Shown here: positions 17,652-39,336 of the stretch, piece after piece
Numbering within the stretch: position 1 is the stretch's first letter
Layout: each line of letters opens with the position of its first letter
Assembly (NCBI GenBank): GCA_944323705.1
Contig: CALUTM010000014.1
Span: 1-39,336, forward strand
Source: Candidatus Gastranaerophilales bacterium
Lineage (GTDB): Bacteria > Cyanobacteriota > Vampirovibrionia > Gastranaerophilales > Gastranaerophilaceae
Reading direction: 5' to 3'
Length of the DNA stretch: 39,336 nucleotides
Program-made: the position numbers and the translations under genes
Notes under the pieces: generated by a model
Databases searched by the model: none
Seen by the model: the letters and a program-made list of their open reading frames with translations, nothing else
Told to the model about the DNA's origin: nothing

Positions 17652-18237
17652 TTTTTCTCCCGTCAAACATTGATAATCCCGCAATAACGATTGTAAGCAG
17701 CAAAGAAACAAGTTCAAATGCCCAAACGTAATCAATAAAAATTCCTCTTGCAAAAGACAGTACATTGTCAAAAGGCGTCATCTGAGGAATTTCCATTATA
17801 TGAAACGTGTCAGGCATCATAACCAAAGACATCATTACAAGATAAACAAATGCCAAAATGAAAATTCCCGCACACAACAAGGTTATGTACGGAACCGCAA
17901 AACCCTTGCCGTTTGATTTTTTTAGCAAACCTTCGTTGTCAGAATCTTTATCCTCGCTATCTTTGCCCCCTCTATATTTACCCCCCCTATATTTACCCCC
18001 GTGTTGGCAAAACATTATTGATAGCCCGATTATTACAGGTACAGCAAGTCCGTATATTGCAGCCTGAATAATTGCGTTATATTCGGAGCCCAAAATATAA
18101 AAGAATAATGCTCCCGCAAAAAAGACCATTACGGCTGCCAACAATGATCGGATTACATCTTTTGCGAAAAGTGCAATAAGTGCAAAACCAATAATTAAAA
18201 CCGAAGCTATATAAAATATTATGGGATTATTTATCAT
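17644..18237 (-). CDS. nuoJ: Complex I membrane subunit J with a polar repeat insertion
   Basis: NuoJ is a five-helix membrane subunit carrying the transition helix TM3 near the quinone-reduction site. The start at MINNPIIF (197 residues) is set by AGGGAGG just upstream, inside the end of nuoI. Helices 1-3 (ending YGLAVPVIIGLSIMF) are followed by an unusual charged insertion of about 35 residues. It begins with three 5-residue repeats (GGKYR GGKYR GGKDS) and continues EDKDSDNEG before TM4. The insertion lies in a loop and probably spares the fold. Overlaps nuoI by 11 nt and nuoK by 8 nt. Confidence 0.93.
   Translation of the reverse strand: MINNPIIFYIASVLIIGFALIALFAKDVIRSLLAAVMVFFAGALFFYILGSEYNAIIQAAIYGLAVPVIIGLSIMFCQHGGKYRGGKYRGGKDSEDKDSDNEGLLKKSNGKGFAVPYITLLCAGIFILAFVYLVMMSLVMMPDTFHIMEIPQMTPFDNVLSFARGIFIDYVWAFELVSLLLTIVIAGLSMFDGRKNV
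17956..18000 (-). repeat. Three 15-bp tandem repeats within nuoJ
   Basis: On the coding strand three units of 15 bp occur: GGGGGTAAATATAGG, GGGGGTAAATATAGA and GGGGGCAAAGATAGC. They encode GGKYR, GGKYR and GGKDS. Being a multiple of three, copy-number change would keep the frame. G-runs of seven at the junction make slippage plausible. Confidence 0.8.
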
Positions 18238-30754: not shown

Positions 30755-30963
30755 AAGCGGAGTAGTTTGAAGTAGAACCTCCGAGTTCTATTTACCTTTT
30801 TTTAACAAGCGGAGTAGTTGGGCATAAAAGCTACATGTTTTATTTTCCCCCTTTTTTTCAACATGCGGAGTAGTTGGGCATAAAAGCTACATGTTTTATT
30901 TTCCCCCTTTTTTCAACAAGCGGAGTAGTTTGGCGTAAAACCTCCAGAGTCTATTTACCCCCT
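30755..30963 (+). repeat. Four-unit tandem hairpin array (52-56 bp period)
   Basis: Units begin with GCGGAGTAGTT at 30757, 30809, 30865 and 30920 and end in TTTTATTTTCCCCC or similar plus a T-run. Unit 1 reads TAGAAC...GTTCTA where units 2 and 3 read TAAAA...TTTTA. Unit 1 also lacks both the GGG and the CCCCC found in the others, so pairing arms vary together. The T-runs suggest serial weak terminators between two convergent genes. The last unit runs into the stop codon of the next gene. A stray copy lies at 621-665. It is not a CRISPR. Confidence 0.75.
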
Positions 30964-38805: not shown

Positions 38806-38831
38806 GCGGTCAATGAATTTTCATTGACCGC
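38806..38831 (+). terminator. Intrinsic terminator after the ferritin-like gene
   Basis: GCGGTCAATGA and TCATTGACCGC form a perfect 11-bp stem with loop ATTT, followed by TTTAGTTTTTG. It lies 8 bp after the stop codon. Confidence 0.85.
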
Positions 38832-38867
38832 TTTAGTTTTTGTTATACAATGAAGATAGGCTTATTA

Positions 38868-38990
38868 TTGAAAGTTGAATACGTGTTAAGTGTCGATATG
38901 GCACTCTGCCGAGGAAAAGGTGACTAAATGTCACGTTTTCCGAGAGGGAAGCGTAGCTTCTTTTCGCCAAAGAGGAACCAACTTCCCAAG
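38868..38990 (+). repeat. 123-bp tRNA-linked tandem repeat, unit 1
   Basis: Each unit opens TTGAAAGTTGAATA, reaches GTGTCGATATGGC (the leader end and first 11 nt of tRNA-Leu(CAG)) and then diverges. It holds a strong hairpin, GGAAAA/TTTTCC plus GTGAC/GTCAC around TAAAT, and GAAGC/GCTTC with loop GTA. It also holds TTTCGCCA, complementary to TGGCGAAA of the tRNA (39268-39275), and ends ACTTCCCAAG. This unit has CCAACT near its end where the others have TTGACT or CTGACT. Confidence 0.85.
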
Positions 38991-39113
38991 TTGAAAGTTG
39001 AATACGTGTTAAGTGTCGATATGGCACTCTGCCGAGGAAAAGGCGACTAAATGTCACGTTTTCCGAGAGGGAAGCGTAGCTTCTTTTCGCCAAAGAGGAA
39101 TTGACTTCCCAAG
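38991..39113 (+). repeat. 123-bp tRNA-linked tandem repeat, unit 2
   Basis: Differs from unit 1 at one hairpin base (C at 39044, which weakens one stem pair) and near its end (TTGACT at 39101-39106). The near-identity implies recent duplication or gene conversion. Confidence 0.85.
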
Positions 39114-39236
39114 TTGAAAGTTGAATACGTGTTAAGTGTCGATATGGCACTCTGCCGAGGAAAAGGTGACTAAATGTCACGTTTTCCGAGAGGGAAGCGT
39201 AGCTTCTTTTCGCCAAAGAGGAACTGACTTCCCAAG
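39114..39236 (+). repeat. 123-bp tRNA-linked tandem repeat, unit 3
   Basis: Nearly identical to unit 1. Its end (CTGACTTCCCAAG) passes directly into the leader of the real tRNA, where TATAAG (39249-39254) replaces the TACGTG seen in the repeats. That gives only the tRNA copy a plausible -10. Confidence 0.85.
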
Positions 39237-39260
39237 TTGAAAGTTGAATATAAGTTTTGT

Positions 39261-39336
39261 GTCGATATGGCGAAATTGGTAGACGCGCATGATTCAGGTT
39301 CATGTGGAGAGATCCTTGGGGGTTCAAATCCCCCTA
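39261..39336 (+). tRNA. tRNA-Leu (anticodon CAG), cut by the window end
   Basis: The acceptor 5' strand is GTCGATA and the D-arm is GCG...CGC with AAATTGGTAGA. The anticodon stem CATGA/TCATG holds loop TTCAGGT (anticodon CAG, codon CUG). There is a long variable arm, and the T-arm is GGGGG/CCCCC with TTCAAAT. The last bases of the acceptor stem lie beyond the window. Its first 11 nt and part of its leader are copied three times in the upstream 123-bp repeats. Confidence 0.93.

Follow-up and report, generated by a model that had tools for sequence, protein, structure and literature searches.

The 39,336-nucleotide window analysed here, contig C14 (CALUTM010000014.1) of a 1.93-Mb genome of Candidatus Gastranaerophilales bacterium assembled in 87 contigs (GCA_944323705.1, labelled G000), ends in a tandem array of three 123-bp units followed by the start of a tRNA-Leu(CAG) gene. 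Each unit contains a hairpin of about 45 nt, here called E, which we regard, with a probability of roughly 0.55, as an undescribed, non-autonomous, very small and probably mobile element that is dispersed through the order Gastranaerophilales. E is widely dispersed and has definable boundaries, three pairs of filled and empty sites were found, it is present or absent at the same locus within one genus, and its stem covaries. Its two orientations, its location at both 5' and 3' ends of tRNA genes, in copies of 5S rRNA and in other repeats, its conserved ends and the empty sites are best explained by a small element that is non-autonomous and acts at the level of DNA.

Distribution of E

A covariance model of E (R1) matches 218 of the 241 sampled Gastranaerophilales genomes, in 37 of 50 genera, with 1 to 25 or more matches in each; 36 copies of E are found in genome G064. 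The original prediction, made from the letters of the window alone, held that the array is more than a local duplication, and this search of related genomes bears it out. It had named two outcomes that would reduce the unit to a local event: sites unrelated to tRNA 5' ends were indeed found, and as to absence from every other genome the opposite was found. In the genome of the window itself, the core TGACTAAATGTCA lies just 5' of tRNA-Val(GAC) (two units), tRNA-Ala(GGC), tRNA-Leu(TAA) and tRNA-Leu(GAG) and, with one change, just 5' of tRNA-Pro(TGG), in every case immediately following a copy of the neighbouring tRNA's own 5' end, and a two-copy variant of the core is present on contig C34.

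A pattern scan was extended to 84,980 species genomes; among the matches listed, at least 80, most are labelled Candidatus Gastranaerophilales, Melainabacteria or uncultured gut bacteria. Two matches, on a viral contig (L058:6995-7025) and a Patescibacteria contig (L134:1274-1299), were rejected as E, having GTGACTAAATGTCAC in longer hairpins followed by GAGAGG and lacking the CTCTGCCGA end; they are possibly chance matches, of which about one is expected by our own estimate. Literature searches, with incomplete coverage of papers, returned no description of E.

Sequence and structure of the hairpin

The anatomy of E was read from 49 distinct copies of modal length. The element runs from CTCTGCCGA through one side of a covarying stem, usually GTGACTAAATGTCAC and the other side of the stem to GAGAGG, and in these copies the G8.A40/A9.G39 step is invariant and the ends are CUC/GAG, while the outer pair varies as GC, CG, AU and GU, a compensatory substitution. 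In an ungapped alignment of 42 of the 49 copies, 91.5% of the pair cells are standard and 63 cells show double changes, versus 17.6 in shuffles (0/500) and far above slid controls. The conserved hairpin of the original prediction, for which a covariance analysis had been called for, is thus substantiated. Since the loop and GAGAGG were fixed by the scan pattern, their invariance comes partly from the selection of copies; the CTCTGCCGA end lies outside that pattern. Alternative tips, TGATTAAGTATCA, CGATTGAGTATCG and AATCCGGTGAATT, occur between the same ends, and in the tRNA-Leu(GAG) unit relatives G114 and G253 are alike in the outer parts and unlike in the tip. The terminal complement is confined to CUC/GAG (3-4 bp).

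With the covariance models of Rfam 15, tRNA alone scored above cut-off in the array region, and seven E loci gave only tRNA at gathering scores. A tRNA-like cloverleaf or acceptor stem was rejected as a general feature (own stems 11.1, versus 10.5 when swapped and 10.5 when shuffled). The kink-turn RNA motif has a three-nucleotide bulge and tandem sheared G.A pairs between two helices; as read from sequence, E has a G.A/A.G step with a four-nucleotide bulge (UGCC).

Filled and empty sites

Three pairs of filled and empty sites were found, each within one genome or contig. At L108 the empty site reads ATTCTGAGC-GTTA-GCGAAG and GTTA is replaced by E; in L277 versus L276 it reads TTTAC-GGAC-GGACGG and GGAC is replaced; in the 5S copy of L107 it reads GGGATG-GGAA-CGGGTGG and GGAA is replaced. 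In all three E stands in place of 4 nt, with no target duplication.

Presence and absence were also compared at tRNA-Leu(CAG) within the genus. Relative G255 shares the upstream gene end, its terminator hairpin and the promoter with the window, and tRNA-Leu(CAG) follows them directly, with no unit; most other loci read are likewise without units; G193 carries a single unit and G267 the remnant of one. The array may never have existed in G255, or may have been lost there through recombination between the direct repeats. The tRNA-Ala units have E and flanks common to several genomes and carry compensatory changes in a second hairpin, which shows that they have been tolerated or useful over a long time.

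Location of E relative to RNA genes

Among 120 distinct instances, 55 lie in sense orientation just 5' of a tRNA gene, 7 in antisense orientation just past a tRNA 3' end, and 16 by contig ends; the other 42, among them inner array units and 5S cases, lie elsewhere. The 5'-side sense copies are associated with tRNA Leu(CAG, GAG, TAA, TAG), Val, Ala, Pro, Met, Lys, Thr and Ile, and the 3'-side antisense copies with tRNA Arg, Glu, His and Leu(CAA). The specificity for tRNA 5' ends that had originally been proposed is therefore not upheld, because copies of the hairpin also turn up on the opposite strand at the 3' ends of tRNA genes, within copies of 5S rRNA and away from tRNAs, including in non-tRNA repeats.

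E lies mostly within a partial copy of the outer end of the adjacent tRNA gene, from the 5' end to the D-arm (sense) or from the 3' end to the T-arm (antisense). E marks the end of the copied part, which in most cases comprises the first 10-11 nt (Met, Leu, Lys), 16-19 nt (Val, Ala, Pro, Thr) or 25-26 nt (Ile); on the 3' side the copy stops in the T-loop. Seen from outside the gene, E mostly sits in the first arm: coming from the 5' side, the D-arm (for tRNA-Ile, the anticodon stem); coming from the 3' side, the T-loop; and in 5S rRNA, loop C. In the 5S copies (L137, L107) E replaces bases of the sequence read as loop C and an intact 5S gene adjoins. The interrupted copy generally adjoins an intact RNA gene, and the outer flank is present twice, as a direct repeat that mostly ends right at E. 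L091 departs from this inward layout: there the tRNA-Ile copies interrupted by E come after the real gene. Arrays reach three units in the window and four at tRNA-Leu(CAA) in G064. A strong constraint on the tRNA copies (about 3% versus 20-50% mismatch) was considered and rejected, because the rows had been pre-filtered for similarity and diverged copies exist (L077, L191, L199).

The array at tRNA-Leu(CAG)

The last 469 bases of the window comprise the three units (38868-39236) and the start of the tRNA gene. The exact 123-bp period with a copied tRNA 5' end, as first described, is confirmed by direct reading and by Tandem Repeats Finder, which reports 38868-39271 as 3.3 copies with 96% matches, no indels and a score of 745. 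Each unit runs from a leader box, TTGAAAGTTGAATA, through a short stretch unlike the real leader to tRNA nt 1-11, the 45-nt E and a 3' segment; the exact tRNA copy stops after 11 nt in every unit and E begins there. The features, all on the + strand, are as follows.

38806..38831, +, terminator-like hairpin of the upstream gene (GCGGTCAATGAATTTTCATTGACCGC), an 11-pair stem then a T-rich tail, conserved in the array-free relative G255
38824..38851, +, promoter-like site TTGACC-16-TACAAT, 5' of all units, a consensus match only (10/12 positions); G255 has the same sequence before its tRNA
38868..38990, +, unit 1 (123 bp), Tandem Repeats Finder and direct reading
38892..38902, +, copy of tRNA-Leu(CAG) nt 1-11 (GTCGATATGGC) in unit 1, identical to 39261-39271
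38903..38947, +, E hairpin 1 (A + CTCTGCCGA...GAGAGG), R1 model 77.9 bits at 38903-38951, boundaries taken from the family
38962..38969, and again at +123 and +246, +, TTTCGCCA, complementary to tRNA nt 8-15 (TGGCGAAA), shuffle test
38991..39113, +, unit 2 (123 bp), Tandem Repeats Finder and direct reading
39015..39025, +, copy of tRNA nt 1-11 (GTCGATATGGC) in unit 2, direct reading
39026..39070, +, E hairpin 2 with a single stem change (GGCGAC), R1 model 74.3 bits
39114..39236, +, unit 3 (123 bp), Tandem Repeats Finder and direct reading
39138..39148, +, copy of tRNA nt 1-11 (GTCGATATGGC) in unit 3, direct reading
39149..39193, +, E hairpin 3, R1 model 77.9 bits
39237..39260, +, real tRNA leader, a fourth copy of the leader box (TTGAAAGTTGAATA) followed by TAAGTTTTGT, direct reading
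39261..39336, +, tRNA-Leu(CAG), first 76 of 85 nt, Rfam RF00005 at 40.6 bits, cut at the 3' end

A few base differences distinguish the three units, and the 123-bp unit folds better than its shuffles (z = -3.75, 0/200). The contrast drawn originally between TATAAG as the -10 of the real tRNA copy and TACGTG in the units holds as such, but the better promoter-like match sits 5' of unit 1. From this position, the units are probably transcribed together with tRNA-Leu(CAG), within its precursor RNA. The complete tRNA gene is present on contig C24, which overlaps the window end by 77 bases; the window breaks off inside the tRNA, at the end of its contig, and the exact number of units is therefore only as reliable as the draft assembly.

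Contigs C2, C15, C21, C24, C36, C38 and C59 of the same genome also have an end in or next to a tRNA gene, as would be expected from unresolved repeats there. Arrays of this kind may thus be a hidden cause of assembly breaks, and tRNA leaders in such assemblies may be incomplete.

Antisense segments after E

Downstream of E, many units carry sequence that is antisense to the uninterrupted tRNA arm. Perfect antisense extends over 16 nt in a tRNA-Asp unit with a different insert (tRNA nt 7-22, 16/16 bases), 16 nt in the tRNA-Leu(CAG) leader of G248, 14 nt in tRNA-Leu(GAG) of G244 and 8 nt in the window (P = 0.011). The last of these is the complementarity first noticed in the window; it is real, and modest when taken alone (1.1% of shuffles reach 8 nt). 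Over 52 units the mean antisense score is 8.7 for the own tRNA, 6.6 for other tRNAs and 5.7 for shuffled sequence, with 15 of the units individually strong and 37 not. As the antisense reaches past the point at which E interrupts the copy, it must come either from an intact tRNA or from selection to match one.

Units of the same layout, in which the tRNA's own 5' end is copied and an insert follows, but with inserts that are without the E core, precede tRNA-Asn(GTT) (C36:17000-18845, L066), tRNA-Asp(GTC) (C79:3000-4284, L060) and tRNA-Val(TAC) (C36:1-1200, L065) in the genome of the window; those of tRNA-Asn and tRNA-Asp also carry an antisense segment.

Proposed mechanism and alternative explanations

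E would enter an RNA gene mostly at the first arm met from outside, the outer flank would be duplicated as a direct repeat and an intact gene would remain beside the interrupted copy; unequal exchange between direct repeats could then expand or contract an array, as to three units in the window and four in G064. The layout beside RNA genes may reflect the survival of those cells that kept an intact copy. We infer that E spread by transposition, not by vertical descent plus gene conversion, that it acts as DNA or as a single-stranded DNA hairpin, and that flanks were duplicated in the manner described. A bolder and tentative proposal, for which the odds are somewhat unfavourable, is that E stands for a new class of mobile hairpins that enter structured-RNA genes from outside at the first arm, keep an intact gene in place by duplicating the gene end, carry an inverted copy of the target arm and are moved by a still undiscovered enzyme.

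Several observations weigh against a mobile element. Simple insertion gives no account of the antisense copy of the uninterrupted arm after E in many units, which is the main unexplained feature. Some units, such as those at tRNA-Ala, look old and vertically inherited, so that current mobility is not proven. The idea that E always sits in a hairpin tip failed a flank-pairing test (11.4 versus 11.2 when swapped, p = 0.44) and siting in hairpin tips is therefore kept only for examples read directly, namely D-, T- and 5S loops and some palindromes. Finally, no mobilising enzyme was identified among the candidates considered, reverse transcriptases being unrelated to E and the relation to RAYT-like genes being modest and without phylogenetic control.

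The inverted arm copy has a ready source if the units arise by replication errors, in which a polymerase stalls at the first arm of an RNA gene, switches template to other hairpins as well as to the other strand and resumes at the outer flank, with no transposase. Such errors also account for the outside-first-arm layout on both sides, for the few-base replacements and for the different tips of the tRNA-Leu(GAG) unit in G114 and G253. They would nevertheless need several switches per event, among them one to a distant E that has the same ends each time, and do not alone explain the invariance of those ends across genera. We consider this origin rather unlikely.

Somewhat less probable still is a role of the units as functional RNA leaders, in which the antisense segment would pair either with the tRNA copy of the same unit or with the real D-arm and so tune tRNA folding or processing by RNase P. 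The position of the units between promoter and tRNA, the covarying stems, the 14-16 nt of antisense to the own tRNA (tRNA-Asp, tRNA-Leu(GAG) of G244, tRNA-Leu(CAG) of G248), the mean score favouring the own tRNA, and the persistence of the tRNA-Ala units in several genomes, where their second hairpin shows compensatory changes, are all consistent with it. However, the same E lies away from tRNAs and, on the opposite strand, at tRNA 3' ends past the terminator; units on that side would not share the decoy or regulatory role first suggested, which argues against a general leader function. Moreover, most tRNA-Leu(CAG) genes of the genus have no units and 37 of the 52 units have no individually strong antisense.

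If E is a mobile element as preferred here, then in nearly all sampled genomes of a gut-bacterial order the ends of tRNA genes, and sometimes of 5S genes, are rearranged by such an element. The spread of a 45-nt sequence that holds no gene could be tested on it, and tRNA leaders that have or lack transcribed, tRNA-mimicking units would form a natural series.

Candidate mobilising enzymes

RAYT-like Y1 transposases are encoded in 79 of the 241 genomes, and the mean E count is 10.1 with and 7.3 without them (p = 6e-5, phylogeny uncontrolled). E occurs within the roughly 4-kb neighbourhood of 6 of 20 RAYT genes, and four of these loci hold a tRNA. These figures would fit E being moved by such enzymes as an unusual REP (repetitive extragenic palindromic sequence), but 24 genomes with at least 15 E show no Y1 match, the RAYT genes have another hairpin immediately 5' of them (in some with a GTAG tag), and one RAYT interrupts an E, so that they may be neighbours and not movers. 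Mobilisation by RAYT is accordingly judged very improbable. Reverse transcriptase was rejected as mobiliser, its presence being unrelated to E count (p = 0.94) and none being found in the genome of the window. An autonomous copy was sought by eye, with no family-library search made, and no transposase was seen in the open reading frames between paired E (L101, L127) or near E (L014).

The genome of the window has two RAYT-like Y1 transposase genes (G000:C36:6655-7023 and C41:466-807). In relatives, RAYT-like genes stand beside E units at tRNA 3' ends (L214, L219, L220, L221).

Local tandem duplication without wider meaning fits the near-identical units, the exact period and the array-free relative G255 and explains the copy number of three, but not the hairpin, which recurs at other tRNAs of the genome and across the order (218 of 241 genomes); as the whole account it is hardly credible.

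Comparison with known small repeats

Four kinds of known small repeats come closest to E. By description, the small mobile repeats (SMR) of Haloquadratum walsbyi have terminal inverted repeats and no target duplication (PMC3119063). Like E they are very short, non-coding and dispersed, SMR-A often lies inside other palindromic elements, and their mode of mobilisation is unknown (PMC3119063); they are, however, archaeal and have terminal inverted repeats, whereas E has a terminal complement of 3-4 bp, is tied to RNA genes and shows flank duplication there. As to the target, the three E pairs show 4-nt replacement without duplication, yet the tRNA cases carry flank duplication. The palindrome-associated transposable elements (PATE) are likewise non-coding and defined by palindromes (PMC3119063), but relate to the ends of IS605-type transposons; no such parent was found for E, known transposon ends not having been searched.

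REP sequences and their RAYT genes (REPtrons; PMC3733652) share with E the character of short, dispersed, non-autonomous palindromes, and RAYT-like genes are present in many Gastranaerophilales genomes. REPs bear a GTAG/CGTC tag at the foot of the hairpin; E has no such tag (its ends are CTCTGCCGA and GAGAGG) and has the invariant UGCC and G.A/A.G step. The GTAG frequently seen 3' of E is part of the tRNA D-loop and is missing at other sites. SDR5 of Nostoc and relatives is described as inserting inside HIP1 (GCGATCGC) (Elhai et al. 2008, as cited in PMC4390886); it resembles E in being dispersed, very small and precisely inserted, and in belonging to Cyanobacteria in the wide sense. Unlike SDR5, E showed no HIP1 halves at its junctions in the flanks read.

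Other repeats

In G064 (L272, L274, L275, L276, L277, L281) a long hairpin-rich repeat starting with GCGGATTTAC or GCGGATTTGC is present in several copies, some holding E; it gave no Rfam match in the loci tested. Elsewhere in the window, positions 30795-30963 consist of tandem 56-bp units containing GCGGAGTAGTTGGGCATAAAA and positions 17957-18000 of a 15-bp tandem repeat, CTATATTTACCCCCC, and similar strings occur on other contigs of the genome.
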